DNA from: a virus
Length of the DNA stretch: 20,651 bases
Direction: 5' to 3' (one strand)
IMG/VR virus record: IMGVR_UViG_3300031902_000291
Coordinates: 1 to 20,651 of that record
Both the position numbers and the translations under genes were made by a program. This document shows positions 2,895 through 20,651 of the stretch, piece by piece. How positions within the stretch are numbered: the first letter of the stretch is position 1; each line of letters opens with the position of its first letter. The notes beneath the pieces were generated by a model. The model was not told the DNA's origin, did no database searches, and saw nothing but the letters and a program-made list of their open reading frames with translations.

Positions 2895-3767
2895 ATGAGC
2901 AAGATTAAAGCAAAATATATTGACTTCAATCCTGACACAATGGAGGCTATTGCAGGGCAACTCTCTGCGAAAGCCACTTCTGCGGACGGCAAGGATGTCA
3001 AAGTCTCAGCAGGGGATACTACTCCTGCATTCCTCTCAGCCAAAATACTTGGCACTACCAACAGGGTTACCGTCACCAAGACTGACGCAGGGGCAAACGA
3101 GACTTTAGTGATCGATGTTGTGGGACTCGGAGGAACGGCAGAGATGCAGGTGTCGGGAGGGTATATTCAGTACCGACCCGATAGTGGAGCATCTTGGTCA
3201 AATCTGATTCTGGTCAGTAGCCTTGTCGGGGCAACGGGGTCGGCAGGTGCGGACGGACAAGCAGGTACAGCAGGAACAGCAGGTGCAAAGGGAGATAAAG
3301 GAGACACGGGAGTAACAGGTGCAACGATTGAACTGCAAGTGTCGGGCGGGTACATTCAATGGAGAACCGTGGGAGGTGTGTCGTGGACTAATCTGATTTT
3401 GGTCAGTAGTCTTGTCGGAGCGACAGGTACAACTGGAGCAGGGGGAGCAACAGGAGCAACAGGGAAAGGAATCTCATCTACATCCTACAACGCAGGAACA
3501 GGAGTCCTGACTATCACGTATACCGATGCCACAACCTACAGCACTGCCGATCTGAGAGACACAGCCGTGGAGATCAATATCAATTTCCTTGATTTGACCC
3601 CATTTGTCTACAATGTCCCCAAAGCAATGGTTTTAACAGCACAGGCACACGAAAGCACGATAGCAACGCTGAGTATTGCGCTTAATACCAACATGGCTCG
3701 GTATGATAAGTTGACCATCACCCCCGCAGTAATCGGATTAATCACCTTAACAGGCACATTACTATGA
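2895..3767 (+). CDS. Tail fibre protein with collagen-like segments
   Basis: This 290-residue protein shares its first ~75 residues with the previous protein. An internal module of about 33 residues occurs twice, at 82-114 and 145-177 (core QVSGGYIQ, SW-x-NLILVSSLVGATG). Each copy is followed by Gly-x-x collagen-like repeats (about 112-143 and 175-193), which typically trimerise in phage fibres. A KGISSTSYN...DLR motif at 191-221 is also common in fibre proteins. The C-terminal 70 residues are beta-rich and unrecognised. The stop overlaps the start of the large repeat protein (ATGA at 3764), so the two are probably made together and may form one fibre complex. Confidence 0.83.
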   Translation: MSKIKAKYIDFNPDTMEAIAGQLSAKATSADGKDVKVSAGDTTPAFLSAKILGTTNRVTVTKTDAGANETLVIDVVGLGGTAEMQVSGGYIQYRPDSGASWSNLILVSSLVGATGSAGADGQAGTAGTAGAKGDKGDTGVTGATIELQVSGGYIQWRTVGGVSWTNLILVSSLVGATGTTGAGGATGATGKGISSTSYNAGTGVLTITYTDATTYSTADLRDTAVEININFLDLTPFVYNVPKAMVLTAQAHESTIATLSIALNTNMARYDKLTITPAVIGLITLTGTLL

Positions 3768-6151
3768 GAGAGTATATAACATCCAAGGCATCAGGAACAG
3801 GTGGTGCTACCCTGCCAACCCTTCCGTCTCCTGTAACAACCGATCCTGTTGCATGGACTCGCCCTTCGGATTGGATCGACATTTCTACGGTTGATGCCAA
3901 CGAGATCAAGATTCTGAGTACCGAAGGGGTAGGCTTATGCTTTCAGACAACCATAGCAGGGAGCGGTACTTACTCAATCGATTGGGGTGACGGAACAATT
4001 GATACAGACAGAGCGTCAGCAACGATTTACCACCACGTATTTACTTCAGCCAACGGGACAGACTGTTCGTTGGGGTACAAAACATTTGCTGTCAGAATAT
4101 ATGGCGCATCGGGCAATATCACCGCATGGAAGATTGCCAAACCAACCACGATCAGCGGACAGCACTACTCTCCTATGTTGGAGTTTAATAGTGGAGTAAC
4201 AACATGGTCAAGTACGGGGTTTGCAAATATGTTTGTAAACTCAGGTGGTTATCTTCCTCCATTGTTGCGTTCTGTAAAAATTTCATCTTGGGGATCAAGC
4301 ACGGGGTACTCAGGCTTATTTGATGGTTGCACCACACTTCAATCAGTTACCCTCCCGTCTTCATGGGGCAGTACAACTACTGTAGCAACCATGTTTAATT
4401 TATGCTACTCTCTTCATACCGTTACACTACCATCCACTTGGGGTAATGTCACTAACGCAACAAGTATGTTTAACGGTTGTTTTTCTCTTCAATCTGTCGC
4501 ACTCCCAACTTCTTGGGGAAGTATCAATTCAGCAATAAGTCTTTTTTACGGCTGTACTTCATTAAGAGGGATTACCCTTCCTGACTCATGGGGGAGTATA
4601 CCGTTTTTAACGAGTTTCTTTCAGAACTGTTATTCTCTTCAGACCTTAACGCTACCAAATACTTGGGGGATCGTGACCAAGACGGACAGTATGTTTCAAG
4701 ATTGCCGTTCGCTACAACCCGTTACTCTTCCAACTACTTGGGCAGGTATTACTACTACGCAAAGTATGTTTGCAAATTGCTATGCACTAAGAACTATTAT
4801 CATGCCTATCTCTTGGGGAAGTGTCCTCACACCCGTAGGTATGTTTTCGTCTTGTACTTCACTCCAATCAATCGTTCTTCCAACTGCTTGGGGAAGTGTC
4901 AGCAATGTCAACACGATGTTTAACACTTGCTATTCCCTTCAGTCTATTGTCCTCCCTGCGTCTTGGGGTAGTGTGAGCAATACCAACCAAATGTTTAATG
5001 GTTGTTCATCATTAATAAGTGCCTCCCTTCCCATGGATACAATGGGTATTATTACTAATGTATCAAATATGTTTTCGGGGTGCGCTTTTCTTCAGTCCAT
5101 TACCTTACCTGCCTCTTGGGGAAGTGTATCTCTTGCATCAAGTATGTTTTCGGGGTGTAATGCTTTACATACCGTAACCCTTCCAACCTCTTGGGGTAGC
5201 GTTACCAAAACGGATTCAATGTTTTATAATTGCTACTCCCTGCAATCAGTCACTCTTCCAACATCATGGGGAAGTATTACTACTACACAAGCCATGTTTT
5301 ATGGATGCTCTGCACTTCAGTCTATCACTCTTCCGACAACTTGGGGAAGTAGTCACTCCTCCATGAATTCGATGTTTATGAATTGCTACTCCCTGCAATC
5401 TATAATACTTCCTTCTTCTTGGGGTAACTGTAATAATGTGTCAGCGATGTTCCAAGGTTGCTACTCCCTGCAATCGGTTAATCTTCCAACAACGTGGTCA
5501 AACAGTCTTAGTACCGTTGCTACAATGTTTAACAATTGCTACTCCTTACAAGCAATATCTCTCCCTGCATCATGGGCAAATATAACAAACACGTTACAAA
5601 TGTTCCAAAACTGCTACTCTCTGATTGCCGTCACTATGCCAACCGCTTGGGGAAATGTATATTCTGCGAATGGGATGTTTAGTTCTTGTGAATCACTAAA
5701 ATCCATTGTGCTACCGACTGCAATGAATACTGTAAATGTGCTAAATGATTTTTCTAATATGTTCAGTTACTGTGTCTCCTTGGTATCTGTTGCTAATACG
5801 CAATATTTAGGCTCTTCTCTCCAACAAGCCAGTCTGAGTAATGCATTTATGAATTGCTATGCCTTGACGAGCAATATCGTGATCGACTCACTTATTAGTT
5901 CGTTCTCTTGCCAAGGTGTTGGGGGTTTGTCAAAGATACCATCTGTAAGGCTCACAAGGGCGGGTTCGACATTTGGGAACACACCTCATGTCGATGTATC
6001 TAAGAGCGACATGAGCGCATCGGCACTCAACGACTTATTTGGCGATCTTCCGACCATAGCAGGAAAAACAATCACCATAACAGGTTGTACAGGCGCAGGA
6101 ACTTGCACCAAGTCAATAGCAACAGGTAAGGGATGGACAGTAACAGGTTAA
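3764..6151 (+). CDS. Giant BspA-like leucine-rich-repeat fibre protein
   Basis: This 795-residue protein has three parts. The N-terminal ~150 residues include a PKD-like segment (GTYSIDWGDGTID, residues 68-80), a beta fold common in surface proteins. Residues about 185-707 form ~21 tandem repeats of 25 residues with consensus MF-x-x-CYSLQSVTLPTSWGS, related to BspA/DUF285-type leucine-rich repeats. Cys, Leu, Pro and Trp recur at fixed positions. The C-terminal cap ends in GKTITITGCTGAG then GKGWTVTG, an ending I associate with Bacteroidetes phage and surface BspA proteins. BspA proteins bind host or bacterial surface ligands, so a receptor-binding role is inferred. There is no signal peptide, which fits a virion protein. 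It is coupled to the fibre gene upstream. Confidence 0.88.
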   Translation: MREYITSKASGTGGATLPTLPSPVTTDPVAWTRPSDWIDISTVDANEIKILSTEGVGLCFQTTIAGSGTYSIDWGDGTIDTDRASATIYHHVFTSANGTDCSLGYKTFAVRIYGASGNITAWKIAKPTTISGQHYSPMLEFNSGVTTWSSTGFANMFVNSGGYLPPLLRSVKISSWGSSTGYSGLFDGCTTLQSVTLPSSWGSTTTVATMFNLCYSLHTVTLPSTWGNVTNATSMFNGCFSLQSVALPTSWGSINSAISLFYGCTSLRGITLPDSWGSIPFLTSFFQNCYSLQTLTLPNTWGIVTKTDSMFQDCRSLQPVTLPTTWAGITTTQSMFANCYALRTIIMPISWGSVLTPVGMFSSCTSLQSIVLPTAWGSVSNVNTMFNTCYSLQSIVLPASWGSVSNTNQMFNGCSSLISASLPMDTMGIITNVSNMFSGCAFLQSITLPASWGSVSLASSMFSGCNALHTVTLPTSWGSVTKTDSMFYNCYSLQSVTLPTSWGSITTTQAMFYGCSALQSITLPTTWGSSHSSMNSMFMNCYSLQSIILPSSWGNCNNVSAMFQGCYSLQSVNLPTTWSNSLSTVATMFNNCYSLQAISLPASWANITNTLQMFQNCYSLIAVTMPTAWGNVYSANGMFSSCESLKSIVLPTAMNTVNVLNDFSNMFSYCVSLVSVANTQYLGSSLQQASLSNAFMNCYALTSNIVIDSLISSFSCQGVGGLSKIPSVRLTRAGSTFGNTPHVDVSKSDMSASALNDLFGDLPTIAGKTITITGCTGAGTCTKSIATGKGWTVTG
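4316..5885 (+). repeat. Coding tandem repeat, 75-bp unit, about 21 copies
   Basis: The repeats lie within the BspA-like gene and each starts at or near an ATGTTT (Met-Phe) pair. Most units are exactly 75 bp (25 codons); a few are 78 bp or longer, always in frame. DNA identity is partial across the array. Units near 5230, 5383 and 5458 share an exact 18-mer (TTGCTACTCCCTGCAATC), which suggests recent duplication or gene conversion in that part. The last two units (from about 5690) are more divergent and lack the TWG/SWG motif. Confidence 0.9.
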
Positions 6152-9452: not shown

Positions 9453-9468
9453 GTTTACAATTGTAAAC
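9453..9468. promoter_or_regulatory. Perfect 16-bp palindrome
   Basis: GTTTACAATTGTAAAC is a perfect inverted repeat with no spacer. It covers the last codons and stop of the DnaA-like gene and lies just upstream of the 32-residue frame. Half-sites like it (GTTTAC) recur in the early leader near 20526 and near 15893. A binding site for a dimeric regulator is a reasonable guess; it could equally be an RNA feature. Confidence 0.45.
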
Positions 9469-9928
9469 TATCCAGCAAAATGCGTGTCTTGACGTATAAA
9501 TCCTGTAATTCCTTGACCTCATCGATTGTCCTGTAGTAATACAGAATCGTGGCATGATCCCTGTCAATTGTTTTACCAATTCTGGCTTCCGACATACTCG
9601 GAAACATCTCATGGCAGATCACACTGTAGACCTTTCGGGTATCTACCAGTGTCCGAAATTTCTTCCTGCCGACAACATCTTCCACAGTTATTCCATTCAT
9701 CACGCATATCTGGTTTAACAGGGACTCTGGATAAAATTTACCTGCAATATTGTCATTCTGGGCATTGCAGAGTTTTTCTTGCAAAGGGGATAAATCTTCC
9801 TCCCCTTTCTTTCCACGAAGGCTACCGATGATGTAATCGATCTCAATTCGGGTTAATGGAACAAACGATAAAGATTCACTCATGATGTGTGTTTTTAGAC
9901 GATTTAAGACATTATTTTTTTCAGACAT
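9455..9928 (-). CDS. DnaA domain IV-like DNA-binding protein
   Basis: In this 157-residue protein, residues about 78-145 resemble the C-terminal DNA-binding domain of DnaA (Bac_DnaA_C): TVEDVVGRK corresponds to the helix after the linker, TRKVYSVICHEMF to the helix with the conserved R-x-x-A-M-x-L pattern, and ARIGKTIDRDHATILYY to the GRDHSTVLYA signature. Asp124 and His125 are kept; the following residue is Ala126 where DnaA has Ser/Thr. There is no AAA+ domain. The N-terminal 75 residues are unrecognised. It probably binds a DnaA-box-like site to start or block replication or to regulate transcription. An alternative start is Met16 (9883). Confidence 0.72.
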   Translation of the reverse strand: MSEKNNVLNRLKTHIMSESLSFVPLTRIEIDYIIGSLRGKKGEEDLSPLQEKLCNAQNDNIAGKFYPESLLNQICVMNGITVEDVVGRKKFRTLVDTRKVYSVICHEMFPSMSEARIGKTIDRDHATILYYYRTIDEVKELQDLYVKTRILLDSLQL

Positions 9929-10460: not shown

Positions 10461-11801
10461 TTAAAATGGTTGGCTGTCGTTTTGGGATTCTTTGACGGGG
10501 TGCTTGTAAATCTGGGCAGGCAAGTCCGAGAACCTTGTCATTTGTTCGTTGTGTGCGATCTCGATGGTTCCCACTCTCCCCCTGCGGTTTTTGGCAATTG
10601 TAAGATTGTAGGCTTCATCCTCAACCCAAGGGAAGATCACGATGTCTGCATCCTGTTCCAGTGATCCTGATTCACGTAGGTGGGATAGGTGAGGCTTTCC
10701 TGTATCTGCATCCCGATTGAGTTGTGCAAGGGCGATAATTGGTATCTTTTCGGAGAGGGCAAGTTTTTTCAATGACCTGCTCATTTCTCCCACCTGTTGT
10801 TCCCTGTTTGCCCTTTTGTCTGTTGGGGTTAAAAGTTGCAGATAGTCAATGATCACAAGATCGCAACGGCCTTTACGTCTATTTTTTGTGGTCATCGCCT
10901 TAATTAAATTCACCGTCATGTTTGCATCGTCATTCCAGATAATCGAGTGTTTTTCAAGCGTGGTCAGAGAACGATTGATGGTATCCCAATCGTCATCGTT
11001 AAGGTGACCGTCCCTTATCGCAGTCCTGTTCACTTCTGATTCTCCGCTAATCTGAATGCGCATCAAATCTTCTGCTCCCATTTCAAGACCGTAGAAATTT
11101 ACCCATGCTCCCGAACGTGAAGCCATCTTTGCGAAGTGGAGTGCCAGTGAGGTCTTACCAATTGCAGGTCTGGAGGCAACGAGGATGAAATTTGTCTTGC
11201 GCCATCCTCCGGTAGAAAAATTCAGTTCTTTGAATCCAGTTGTGATCCCTGCGCTATTGCCTTTGCGGTATTCTTCACAGTCATTTTCCATTTCCTTGAT
11301 CGTATTCTGGATGACGCTGATTTGGCTTTTGCCAGTAGATTGCCCGACTGAATAGTCATCGATGACTCCTATCTTGACTTTCAATTCATTGAGAATCTCT
11401 TCAATATCAGAGGATTCGTCATAGGCTTGCTCCATCACTCCGAGACTGATCTTGATCAATTCCCTTTGGATAAACTTCTGTTGTACGATCCGAGCGTAGA
11501 ACTCAAGGTTGGTGGTAGTTCCGATGTTACTGGTCAGTTCAGTGACGTAGAGAAAACCTCCTATCTCTTCGACCTTGCCCATTTCACGGAGTGCCTTGGA
11601 AACCATCAGTAGGTCGATGGGCATATTGCGCTTTACAAGCGAACTGATCGCCCTAAATATTTCGACATTCCTGTGGTCGTAAAATGAATCTTCGTTGACC
11701 AGATGGGTTATTTTAACCCATGCTTCGGAATCTAACATCAGCGATCCCAGAACTGCCCGTTCAGCATCTAATGCCTGTGGGGGAACTCTTCCTTCGTTCA
11801 T
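10461..11801 (-). CDS. dnaB: DnaB-type replicative DNA helicase
   Basis: This 446-residue protein has full DnaB architecture and length. The N-terminal domain begins with PPQALDAERAVLGSLMLD (7-24). The RecA-like motor domain has Walker A at about 209-218 (ASRPAIGKTS, where many DnaB proteins have ARPGMGKT), Walker B LVIIDYLQL at 315-323 and the motif LRESGSLEQDADIV at 375-388. It unwinds DNA at the fork as a hexamer loaded by an initiator or loader. Its start overlaps the upstream initiator gene by ATGA (11798-11801), so the two are likely made together and may interact. The last ~20 residues are polar and variable. Confidence 0.95.
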   Translation of the reverse strand: MNEGRVPPQALDAERAVLGSLMLDSEAWVKITHLVNEDSFYDHRNVEIFRAISSLVKRNMPIDLLMVSKALREMGKVEEIGGFLYVTELTSNIGTTTNLEFYARIVQQKFIQRELIKISLGVMEQAYDESSDIEEILNELKVKIGVIDDYSVGQSTGKSQISVIQNTIKEMENDCEEYRKGNSAGITTGFKELNFSTGGWRKTNFILVASRPAIGKTSLALHFAKMASRSGAWVNFYGLEMGAEDLMRIQISGESEVNRTAIRDGHLNDDDWDTINRSLTTLEKHSIIWNDDANMTVNLIKAMTTKNRRKGRCDLVIIDYLQLLTPTDKRANREQQVGEMSRSLKKLALSEKIPIIALAQLNRDADTGKPHLSHLRESGSLEQDADIVIFPWVEDEAYNLTIAKNRRGRVGTIEIAHNEQMTRFSDLPAQIYKHPVKESQNDSQPF

Positions 11802-12586
11802 GGCTCTGATAAAATTTTCTCAAACATTTTTTGATTTGGTAACTTGACAGTCTCCGATCCATTCGTTTCTTTTTTAATCCACTTTCGGAAGGTCAGGTTT
11901 GCACTGACGCATTTTGTTAAGAGTGGCTTGTAGTTATGCATGGTCAGGATCATGCTTGTTATTTGTTCCAGAGTGAACTCTGACTTTAAGCGTTCAAATT
12001 CTGCAAGAGTGAAAGGGTATTTCATTTTGGCAACCATCGGAGCATTGTCTTTAATCCACTTGTTGAACTTTGAAAAGTGGATTGAAATTTCACTTGGCGT
12101 GGTCACACGCAAAACCTGTTCCACAGGTTCCCCCACACCCTCTCCCTCTCCCTCCTCCCCTCCCATCCCATCCCCTTCCCGTGGGGTAGACCCATCGGGG
12201 GCACAGCGGGGACTCTGCGGGGGAACATTTTTACTCAGTATGTCTTTAAGAACATCCTTATCAATCAGATAATTAGGATATCTCGCATCAAATTTTTGAT
12301 GGCTATGGAAGGTGCGAATGAGGTAATAATTTTCTTTGTTGTGTGTGATAGGCACAAGCATCTTTGATTCGATCAATGCATCAATGAATTTTTGAATTTC
12401 AGAGGTCTTTAGGTCGTCATCATAAGGAAACAATTTTGCTTTAAGCAGAGAGGTGTTTGCCCTAAACACTCCATTGTCATCTGCCAGATTCCATGTCCCA
12501 ATAAAGAACAGTCTACAGGGTAATGAAAGTTTTGCGATCTTCTCATCCTCCCAAAATTCAGGTTTGATCGATCTTATTCTGGCCAT
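11798..12586 (-). CDS. Phage replication initiator / replisome organiser
   Basis: In this 262-residue protein, residues 1-115 begin ARIRSIKPEFWEDEKIAKLS and include GTWNLADDNGVFR, the pattern of winged-helix phage replication proteins (replisome organiser or O-like). A Gly/Glu/Pro linker runs from about 121 to 160 (GGEEGEGEGVGE at 142-153). The C-terminal part (about 165-245) is helical and resembles the DnaD/DnaT-type helicase-loading region only loosely. It is coupled to dnaB, as expected for an initiator-helicase pair. The linker is coded by an exceptionally G/C-rich, run-rich stretch. In lambda-like and other phages the origin lies inside such a gene, so this stretch is a candidate origin. 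Confidence 0.83.
   Translation of the reverse strand: MARIRSIKPEFWEDEKIAKLSLPCRLFFIGTWNLADDNGVFRANTSLLKAKLFPYDDDLKTSEIQKFIDALIESKMLVPITHNKENYYLIRTFHSHQKFDARYPNYLIDKDVLKDILSKNVPPQSPRCAPDGSTPREGDGMGGEEGEGEGVGEPVEQVLRVTTPSEISIHFSKFNKWIKDNAPMVAKMKYPFTLAEFERLKSEFTLEQITSMILTMHNYKPLLTKCVSANLTFRKWIKKETNGSETVKLPNQKMFEKILSEP
12113..12222. other. Palindrome plus G-run tracts, candidate origin
   Basis: Inside the initiator gene, a perfect palindrome AACCTGT-TCC-ACAGGTT spans 12113-12129. Directly next to it, 12130-12180 is a pyrimidine tract on the + strand with nine runs of three or more C, so the coding (-) strand has nine G-runs with short loops, a strong G-quadruplex pattern. At 12183-12222 the G-runs switch to the + strand (4, 5, 4 and 5 G). 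The tract encodes a flexible linker, so protein constraint is low. Origin function is inferred. Confidence 0.5.
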
Positions 12587-13364: not shown

Positions 13365-13947
13365 TGTATTGCTTGTTAAGGATTTTGTACTTTTCGATGA
13401 TGTCAATCAAATCCGGTTTATCCCATCTGTGCCTCTGGATATCCCATTCTCTCTGGGTTGCCAAGAGTTGCTTGTAGGCTTTTCTGCCGATCTTCTTCCT
13501 GACCCAGTCGTTGTAGATGTAGGATGTCCCGTGTTTAAACTTATTACAGGAACTACACCCGCCATAGACATTCAATTCATTGAATCTGAGCGCACTGTAT
13601 TTCCCTGCGGGGTAGCAATGGCAAGCGTGATAACTTGTCCGGTCGATTACCTTGGTGGTGTTGCAGGTCGGACAGTAGAAGTGAGTGCCGTTGATGGCAT
13701 CCCTGTTTCGGATGAAGGTGTTGAAGACAGCCTGTGCCAGAGCCATAAGTTTTGGCAGGGGCATCGAGTCGTAGGTGGCATCCCTGCGCATCTTTGGGGT
13801 GATCTTAGCCTTCGCCAGTTTCAACTTTAACTTGGCTGACCGTACCAGTGGCATACAGGCAGGGCAAGCCTTGGCTATAGCTATCCCGTTGCGCCTACGT
13901 GGTTCGAAGGGGGTATGGCAGATCACGCATTGGATGATGGTGTTCAT
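13348..13947 (-). CDS. ninG: NinG/Rap-like recombination nuclease
   Basis: This 199-residue protein matches the lambda NinG (Rap) family layout. There is an N-terminal zinc-like pair set (C7-x-x-C10, C28-x-x-C31), then LMALAQAVFNTFIRNRD (68-83), C92-x-x-C95, a HACHCYPAG segment (107-115) at the place of the family's AGHY/F motif, RFNELNVYGGCSSCN (121-135) and a basic C-terminus. Rap is a structure-specific endonuclease acting on recombination intermediates. The gene overlaps its upstream neighbour by 4 bp. HACHC in place of AGH is a variant worth checking, although the His is kept. Confidence in the family is high; gene naming is by resemblance. Confidence 0.85.
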   Translation of the reverse strand: MNTIIQCVICHTPFEPRRRNGIAIAKACPACMPLVRSAKLKLKLAKAKITPKMRRDATYDSMPLPKLMALAQAVFNTFIRNRDAINGTHFYCPTCNTTKVIDRTSYHACHCYPAGKYSALRFNELNVYGGCSSCNKFKHGTSYIYNDWVRKKIGRKAYKQLLATQREWDIQRHRWDKPDLIDIIEKYKILNKQYNERFQ

Positions 13948-16520: not shown

Positions 16521-17420
16521 TCAGAAGTCTCTTGTTGGTGTCTGGGGAGGAAACATCTCGGCCTGTTTTTCCACCTTTGCCTCGGTCTTTGGGGGAATTA
16601 CATTTGTAACTTCTGGAGCAGGAGCAGGGGTTTCGACTGGTGGTGGACTGGTGGTGACATTTGAACTGACATCCTCGAAACTTATCTCAACGGTGTTGGC
16701 CTGATCCATCAAGGCATCGTCTTCCTCCTCATCTCTCGTAATCTTAAGGTAGCCATCCGAAGCAGTGTTCATGATATATTTACAGGCTCTCTGGACTACG
16801 CTTTTCTTAGCCATCTCGTCACGGAAGTTTTTGTGGGCAGGGGATGCTCCATTGGTTTTTCCCTGCTCCCATGCCTTCTTGATCTGGCTCATGTTCATGA
16901 TCGTAACCTCTGCCGTTCCGTCTTCCATCGTGGTAATGGCATATGCTCCCCTTATCTTGTCGTTGTCGATGGTTTCAAAATTCTGGGTGTGCTTGACGAT
17001 CTTTTTGCGACCAGAGGAAGACTCTATTTCGTAGACGAACTCGTCTCCCTCGTAGATTACGTTGGCAGTTACGTGTTTCATGCCCACCCGCTTTGCCATC
17101 GCAATCGATCCGAAGTAGGACTTGCTCAGTTTTAACTTATTCCCATAGGGGATGAAGTAGCACTGGTTCTTCTGCGGACTCAAGCCTTGGACAACCATGT
17201 CCAGTAGGCAGGTGGCAACCGAATCCTTGGTGCAGGTTTCAAGGGGTTTCGCATCATGCCCTTGCAGAATGATGTAGGCTGATTTGAGAGCGTTCTCTGG
17301 TGAGTAATCTGGAGGCAGGATCAAAGCCTTGGCCTGTGTAAATGCCTGTATCTTGGCAAGTACCTGATCGGAGATGTTCTTTTCCTGCACGGCAGGAGTA
17401 GTGTTCTTTGGGTCTGTCAT
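16521..17420 (-). CDS. recT: RecT-family single-strand annealing recombinase
   Basis: This 299-residue protein contains the RecT core: LDMVVQGLSPQKNQCYFIPYG (about 72-92), KLKLSKSYFGSIAMAKRVG (94-112), VIYEGDEFVYEI, HTQNF, IRGAYAI, and FRDEMAKKSVVQRACKYI (about 197-214). RecT binds single-stranded DNA and anneals complementary strands in phage recombination. The C-terminal ~70 residues are acidic then Pro-rich (SPPPVETPAPAPEV) and likely disordered, a possible SSB-like tail for partner binding. Its neighbours are an SbcC-like ATPase upstream and an MBL hydrolase downstream. Confidence 0.94.
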   Translation of the reverse strand: MTDPKNTTPAVQEKNISDQVLAKIQAFTQAKALILPPDYSPENALKSAYIILQGHDAKPLETCTKDSVATCLLDMVVQGLSPQKNQCYFIPYGNKLKLSKSYFGSIAMAKRVGMKHVTANVIYEGDEFVYEIESSSGRKKIVKHTQNFETIDNDKIRGAYAITTMEDGTAEVTIMNMSQIKKAWEQGKTNGASPAHKNFRDEMAKKSVVQRACKYIMNTASDGYLKITRDEEEDDALMDQANTVEISFEDVSSNVTTSPPPVETPAPAPEVTNVIPPKTEAKVEKQAEMFPPQTPTRDF

Positions 17421-20262: not shown

Positions 20263-20514
20263 TTATTTGTAAAGGGTTGTAATTCCGAAGTTTGCGAAAT
20301 TGCGTTTGACAATTTCCACCTCGTTGATCTTGATTTTATTGCCTTTTTTGGGGATCATTAACCTCCTTTGCCCCAGTTTCTTATGGGAGAAGGTCTGTTT
20401 AGACCAAGCGCATTCCTGCATTAAGTTGGCTTTCAGTGTCTTGGAGTCGGTGACACTTAATTTAACAAATTGTGGATAAAATCCACAAAAAATTCCGCTA
20501 TCGAGTATTGACAT
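20263..20514 (-). CDS. Small possible DNA-binding protein, first gene of early operon
   Basis: This 83-residue protein is the first gene after the leader and promoter. It has a beta-like N-terminus with CGFYPQFVKLS, then a helix-turn-helix-like stretch (LKANLMQECAWSKQTFSHKK) that loosely resembles small regulators with a helix and the motif W/V-S-x-x-T-F, and a final helix (EVEIVKRNFANFGI). The evidence is weak; it may be a Cro-like regulator. The coding sequence contains the DnaA-box palindrome near codons 9-15. Confidence 0.62.
   Translation of the reverse strand: MSILDSGIFCGFYPQFVKLSVTDSKTLKANLMQECAWSKQTFSHKKLGQRRLMIPKKGNKIKINEVEIVKRNFANFGITTLYK
20470..20488. promoter_or_regulatory. DnaA-box palindrome
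   Basis: The arms TTGTGGAT (20470-20477) and ATCCACAA (20481-20488) pair around a 3-bp spacer. On the - strand it reads TTATCCACA exactly, the classical DnaA box (20471-20479). The second half differs from a box at two positions. It lies next to a very AT-rich region, which is the layout of an origin, but it is inside a coding region and no box array is visible. Confidence 0.5.
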
Positions 20515-20522
20515 ATCGATTT

Positions 20523-20587
20523 TTTGTTTACGTTTGTAACGATTAAGAATTCAAATTTGCAAATTGATTGTTGCAAACGTAAACAAA
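20523..20587. repeat. Long inverted repeat in early leader
   Basis: TTTGTTTACGTTTG (20523-20536) and CAAACGTAAACAAA (20574-20587) are perfect 14-bp arms separated by 37 bp. Between them lies AATTTGCAAATT (20554-20565), a 12-bp palindrome. A further TTTGCAAA is at 20608-20615, and TTGTTA-T-TAACAA at 20618-20630. The right arm overlaps the -7 box of the early promoter, so it could be an operator. The whole stretch 20515-20651 is AT-rich and I see no gene in it. Confidence 0.6.
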
Positions 20588-20604
20588 CAATTTGCATTTC
20601 CAAA
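20574..20604 (-). promoter_or_regulatory. Bacteroidetes-type promoter for early operon
   Basis: On the - strand, TTTG (20604-20601) is followed by 19 bases and then TACGTTTG (20581-20574). This matches the Bacteroidetes primary-sigma consensus TTTG-N19-21-TAnnTTTG. The expected start is near 20568, leaving a leader of about 55 nt before the first ATG at 20514. The -7 box coincides with one arm of the long inverted repeat, so binding of a repressor there would block it. Confidence 0.62.
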
Positions 20605-20651
20605 AGATTTGCAAACATTGTTATTAACAATTTTCTGTTGAATTTAATTGT

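Follow-up and report, generated by a model that had tools for sequence, protein, structure and literature searches.

Gene context of the initiator

The window, i.e., the whole stretch of DNA analyzed here, is a viral record of 20,651 bases. Its left part carries rightward genes of structural type; its right part is a leftward block encoding RecT, an SbcC-like protein, NinB, NinG, an HNH protein, the replication initiator, a DnaB helicase, and a protein with the DnaA C-terminal domain. The initiator gene lies directly upstream of the helicase gene, whose start codon overlaps its end.

10461–11801, minus strand: DnaB-like replicative helicase (Pfam DnaB_C, E = 1.3e-68; PHROG 19, E = 4e-91)
11798–12586, minus strand: phage replication initiation protein, 262 aa (PHROG 2149/1408/16167)

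Residues 1–119 of the initiator match the profiles of the PHROG replication-initiation families 2149, 1408, and 16167 with E-values from 7e-28 to 5e-26, so that the function assigned to this gene in an earlier note, made from the DNA letters only, holds. By sequence, the protein belongs to this "RIR[ST]IKPEFW" family, for which there is no Pfam or NCBIfam model. Unlike lambda O, which matches Phage_rep_O (PF04492; E = 5.7e-36), the window protein and three relatives yield no match to this Pfam model at E ≤ 1; it also differs from the RepA_N proteins in having no match to PF06970 at E ≤ 1. The AlphaFold2 model consists of a confident N-terminal winged helix (codons 1–122), a disordered linker (123–164, pLDDT <50), and a helical C-terminal domain (164–260). 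Its best fold matches in PDB are weak, 4pt7 and 4pql (probability 1.00, E = 0.0025–0.003, TM 0.46–0.48 to the target); 4pt7, entitled "Structure of initiator", is listed in PMC7145576 among the RepA_N-type RepA structures from S. aureus plasmids. The nearest relatives of the initiator are found in Bacteroidota contigs and human-gut phage; judging by these relationships, a member of the Bacteroidota is the probable host.

Just downstream of the helicase block, a small phage protein with the DnaA C-terminal (domain IV) DNA-binding domain is encoded at positions 9455–9928 of the minus strand (Bac_DnaA_C, E = 7e-11). The scan of the window for DnaA boxes yields three, the number expected by chance, and none near the G-run tract described below. 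At 20468–20620, a perfect inverted DnaA-box pair, TTGTGGATAAAATCCACAA, adjoins an A+T-rich region with the inverted repeats GTTTACGTTTG / CAAACGTAAAC; this is possibly an operator or a second regulatory or replication site. A perfect 11-bp tandem duplication, GACTGGTGGTG, is seen at 16635–16656, toward the 3′ terminus of the gene for the RecT-like protein. The structural block encodes, at 3764–6151, a 795-aa protein of repeated SMFxxCxSLQSxxLPxSWGS units, by eye similar to BspA/leucine-rich repeats and a possible adhesin. The Rfam search of the window produces no match, and no tRNAs are found. GC skew, proposed earlier as a check on the origin, is compatible with this area in that the value at 12200 is nearly as low as the cumulative minimum, which is at 13605, in a record that is a fragment and whose skew is confounded by gene strand.

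Two adjoining elements in the initiator linker

The following features are seen in the part of the gene encoding the linker and its borders; the array copies are given as read on the coding strand.

12113–12129, either strand: perfect 7+3+7 palindrome AACCTGT-TCC-ACAGGTT, present but probably incidental
12130–12181, minus strand: purine-repeat tract, a putative opening or strand-capture element, GGGAAGGGGATGGGATGGGAGGGGAGG (period 5) followed by GGGAGAGGGAGAGGGTGTGGGGG (period 6)
12180–12223, minus strand: putative iteron array with an 11-bp period, detected by lag-11 periodicity against synonymous recoding
12213–12223: array copy CCCCCGCAGAG
12202–12212: array copy TCCCCGCTGTG
12191–12201: array copy CCCCCGATGGG
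12180–12190: array copy TCTACCCCACG

The earlier note had described this region as one G-run element that switches strands. The counts behind this description are exact: there are nine coding-strand runs of at least three G in 12130–12180, which is also the densest C-run stretch of the plus strand in the window, and four plus-strand runs of at least four G within 12183–12222, starting at 12183, 12197, 12208, and 12219 (spacings 14, 11, and 11). The single element itself, however, resolves into two adjoining ones, 11-bp iterons and then a purine-repeat tract: the plus-strand G-runs in 12180–12223 are the coding-strand C-runs of the tandem 11-bp repeats, the coding-strand G-runs in 12130–12181 are the purine-repeat tract in a G-rich form, and the strand switch is the border between the array and the tract.

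The array occupies codons 121–136 of the initiator gene and consists of three in-register copies and one shifted, TCTACCCCACG, in which the C-run is out of register by 3. Its lag-11 periodicity exceeds that of synonymously recoded sequences (p = 0.0018–0.003; 0.0018 with the codon usage of the other phage genes), and no other site in the window matches the copies as well. Tandem Repeats Finder does not report the array, which is short and degenerate. After the array, the coding strand reads GGGAAGGGGATGGGATGGGAGGGGAGGAGGGAGAGGGAGAGGGTGTGGGGG, a purine tract of period 5 passing to 6; 89% of the bases in 12130–12183 are purines on this strand. The period of 5–8 in the tract is again stronger than under synonymous recoding (p = 0.005–0.011; 0.011 with the codon usage of other phage genes), and its G+C content is 70%, the family median being 57%.

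The palindrome, perfect as claimed, turns out to be unremarkable. The window contains 25 perfect inverted repeats with arms of at least 7 and loops of at most 10 bases (14.2 ± 4.2 in shuffled sequences), three of them with a 3-base loop, and a functional hairpin at the palindrome was rejected, such palindromes being common in the window. The C-run/G-run hairpin suggested for the mRNA folds mildly better than shuffles (RNA z = −1.9; 8 of 200) and is not convincingly above chance, and a DNA hairpin of the whole tract folds no better than shuffles (z = −0.8); both were rejected. The inverted repeat TTTAATCCACTT / AAGTGGATTGAA (11873–12086) was also rejected as a set of iterons and is ascribed to the protein, since two of its copies fall on the codons for the KWIK motif in the C-terminal domain.

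Arrays and tracts in related phages

We compared 8 + 80 + 80 + 80 + 80 viral loci (partly overlapping), four genome loci, and 17 regions from a phage collection, and computed the statistics on 206 non-redundant relatives. At the same position of the gene, the relatives carry 11-bp arrays of quite different sequence:

L004: AACACCACGTG TACACATGGTG AACACATAGTG AACACTACG
L005: GAGGCCACAGC GAGGCCACAGG GAGGCCAC
L011: ACAACGGGTAC ACAACGGGTAC ACGACG
L096 (Vibrio phage): CACGCGTCAAC repeats
L097 (Gordonia phage): CAGTGCGCCGA repeats
L106 (Propionibacterium phage): TCTCGCGAGGG arrays
other relatives: CTCACTGAGGA and CTCGACGAGCG arrays

Directly 3′ of each of these example arrays there is a purine-repeat tract, e.g., GGAAGGGAAGGGAAAGG (period 5, peptide GKGREGKG), GGAAATGGAAAT (period 6, EMEMEM), GGAACAGGGAACAGG (period 7), and GGAACAGGGGAACAGG (period 8, peptide GTGEQGNRGTGEQ). 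Across the relatives, the period is 5, 6, 7, or 8, mostly on a GGAA/GGGA core, which is present in 149 of 172 tracts; the coding strand is more than 70% purine in 160 of 172, and the median distance from array to tract is 9 bp. The encoded peptide changes completely (GKGREGKG, EKEKEK, NREQG, GTGEQGNR), while the DNA pattern stays. The earlier suspicion that the DNA itself may be selected is supported in that the DNA, rather than the peptide, is preserved among relatives. For the refuting case outlined at the time, a Gly/Glu linker kept with its G-runs broken, the comparison shows something else: the periodicity of the DNA persists although the amino acids differ, and the G-runs are kept only in part.

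The last point bears on the possibility that the function resides in a DNA G-quadruplex of the G-rich coding strand, perhaps facing an i-motif. In favor of this, both three-tier quadruplex motif matches in the 20.6 kb of the window fall in the tract, G4Hunter is near −2.4, and the linker contains 10 runs of at least three G against a mean of 4.7 under protein-preserving recoding with the phage's own codon usage (p = 0.0004). At least four GG runs are also found in 149 of 172 relatives' tracts; however, at least four G3 runs are retained in only 56 of 172, ten tracts have no GG at all (GAAACA, GAAAGA, and AAAAAG repeats), some have the opposite strand orientation (CTGATTC repeats in L102, L107, and L109), and the AA after GG, common to most tracts, is needless for a quadruplex. 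A quadruplex as the conserved element was rejected on the relatives' tracts, and we regard it as highly improbable that such a structure is what the tract is for.

The reversed tracts, with purines on the other strand (CTGATTC / TTGGTTC repeats of period 7–8 in L102, L107, L109, and L032), form a minority, and the named phages that carry them are from Pseudomonas, Bordetella, and Vibrio. L011 and L013 have nearly identical C-terminal domains and divergent N-terminal ones, which suggests, from the sequence comparison, that recombination took place at the linker/origin. In L013, there is additionally an insertion resembling HNH and, instead of the 11-bp array, a 12-bp repeat encoding (STID)n. 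Mycobacteriophage Miko, for which an origin in or next to repA has experimental support, was considered as a tested family member and rejected, its RepA lacking the N-terminal motif of the family and its gene lacking the 11-bp array.

Periodicity beyond the needs of the protein

To score periodicity, the protein was kept and codons were redrawn from the usage of the gene itself; about 100 bp before the tract were scored at a threshold of p < 0.01. Lag 11 is significant in 90 of 206 genes, the other 116 falling short of the threshold. The remaining lags give 45 genes for lag 22, 19 for lag 10, 10 for lag 20, 9 for lag 21, 4 for lag 12, and none of the 206 for lags 9 and 13; in a block of the same size after the tract, lag 11 is seen in only 2 of 204. 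The p-values are per gene and uncorrected, and relatives of common ancestry do not sample the family fully independently; how the lags differ from each other, and the two blocks likewise, is therefore a stronger argument than the individual values. A repeat in the protein cannot account for the 11-bp copies, since 11 is not a multiple of 3 and successive copies are in different frames.

The tract itself exceeds recoding at p < 0.01 in 67 of 73 genes with period 5, 13 of 24 with period 6, 16 of 17 with period 7, and 57 of 58 with period 8. Period 6 is weakest here because it is in step with the codons, so that the recoded protein itself repeats. The tract was chosen as the best segment of period 5 to 8, hence its existence is partly selected for; its core, its purine strand, and its adjacency to the array are not.

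The N-terminal region, first meant as the negative control, produced 10 periodicity hits, which on inspection are mostly extra iteron clusters; for this reason, the block that follows the tract was taken as the control instead. A sliding scan places the lag-11 signal at codons ~11–31 (10–11 genes), ~51–76 (up to 37 genes), and ~101–136 (up to 54 genes), fading through the tract, on a background of 0–2 of 206 between and after these zones. Many relatives (L151, L095, L052, L106, L170, and others) have two further 11-bp clusters, at codons 16–25 and 55–73, in the part of the gene that encodes the conserved winged helix; the window initiator has the linker array without these extra clusters. The iteron sequence varies between subfamilies and is alike within a gene: clusters share 9.3 of 11 positions within a gene versus 7.4 of 11 between genes, and in L151 the word TCGTCGAATG occurs at codons 16, 62, and 111.

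These clusters weigh on two further explanations. By neutral slippage, short repeats would grow in a linker under little constraint, charged residues would make the tract purine-rich, and the DNA would have no function. The linkers are indeed predicted to be disordered, and the tracts resemble microsatellites of period 5–8 with variable repeat length. Against this, the tract adjoins the 11-bp array in many genes, the GGAA/GGGA core persists at all four periods and in different frames, and two more iteron clusters lie within the coding sequence of the conserved folded domain, where slippage products would hardly be tolerated; slippage thus appears improbable. Alternatively, by binding to the arrays as operators, the initiator could repress its own gene or operon, and the origin would be elsewhere. 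Autoregulation is common among initiators, and many relatives have two of their three clusters near the 5′ end of the gene, where binding could block transcription; yet the most frequent cluster is in mid-gene beside the purine tract, as in the lambda and pSK41 origins, and the roles of operator and origin can coexist. We consider operators with the origin elsewhere very improbable.

Comparison with known origins

Origins inside initiator genes are already known, in lambda and pSK41. The lambda O protein binds iterons that lie midway through its own gene, and the region that opens is next to them and has almost exclusively purines on one of its strands (PMC5043065); the order there is iterons and then AAAAGAAAAAAGAAAAG. 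The comparison with lambda O made in the earlier note proves apt, the lambda iterons being at codons 116–144 and the present array at codons 121–136. At both loci, iterons, putative ones in the window, are placed midway through the initiator gene and followed by a purine-asymmetric stretch (PMC5043065, PMC7466680), a likeness of anatomy; both proteins also have an N-terminal DNA-binding domain and a C-terminal partner domain. The lambda iterons, however, are 18-bp inverted repeats spaced 20–24 bp, compared to 11-bp direct repeats here; the annotation of lambda O includes no further iteron clusters; and the lambda region that opens is A+T-rich, so that the common trait is purine asymmetry, not A+T content. 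Easy melting of the window tract is not obvious, since it is G+C-rich (70%) rather than A+T-rich.

In the RepA_N plasmid pSK41, the Rep boxes are located centrally in rep, the N-terminal winged helix binds to them, and the linker peptide can be dispensed with (PMC5703833). The RepA_N plasmids (pSK41, pTZ2162) resemble the window in the central position of the sites within the initiator gene. RepA_N iterons differ from the 11-bp repeats in being longer semi-palindromes that converge on A-tracts (PMC7145576), and the parts of the RepA_N literature examined describe no GGAA tract. In the open-access full texts searched, we found no description of an origin, iterons, or tract for the PHROG 2149/1408/16167 families, in particular of the 11-bp iterons, the extra clusters, or the GGAA tract; the layout of an 11-bp array with a purine tract, which recurs in hundreds of diverse phages, is apparently undescribed.

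A probable replication origin embedded in the initiator gene

The positions, the periodicity, the purine asymmetry, the gene order, and a DNA pattern exceeding the needs of the protein are observed at this locus. By far the likeliest reading is an embedded origin, because the order and place of the elements are the same as in lambda: we assign a probability of roughly 0.83 to the tract being a phage replication origin placed, as in lambda O and RepA_N, in the linker of its own initiator gene. The N-terminal winged helix would bind the periodic 11-bp repeats at 12180–12223; with approximately one iteron per turn of B-DNA, the copies would face the same side, and the 11-bp period suits double-stranded, same-face binding. 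The nucleoprotein complex would then open or capture the purine-asymmetric tract at 12130–12181, which has the position of the purine-asymmetric unwinding region of lambda. Finally, the C-terminal domain, tethered by the disordered linker, would recruit the DnaB-type helicase encoded immediately downstream, the expected partner to be loaded at the origin. On this reading, the peptide of the linker would be mainly a side effect of the DNA pattern required there, which would explain why the amino acids differ so widely among relatives and the DNA pattern does not.

The tract periods of 5–8 have no common helical phase, which weakly hints that the tract is read as a single strand. Tentatively, at somewhat less than even odds, the family may represent a very widespread and undescribed class of phage origins, in which one initiator family uses up to three 11-bp iteron clusters ~140–150 bp apart within the coding sequence, together with a GGAA-repeat tract of a distinct, switchable period (5, 6, 7, or 8 nt) that a repeating protein filament would recognize in single-stranded form, with a logic like that of the DnaA-trio but with a motif of its own. 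The four registers of the tract raise the question of which protein or strand-opening step tolerates spacings of 5, 6, 7, and 8 nt yet keeps the GGAA core. The phages with predicted origins are those of Bacteroidota, Proteobacteria, and Actinobacteria, and for most of them no mapped origin was found. In these genes, selection on the DNA would override the peptide sequence, successive repeats being read in different frames, and the low-complexity linker would become a readable signal, from which the origin may be predicted by sequence alone in hundreds of phages.
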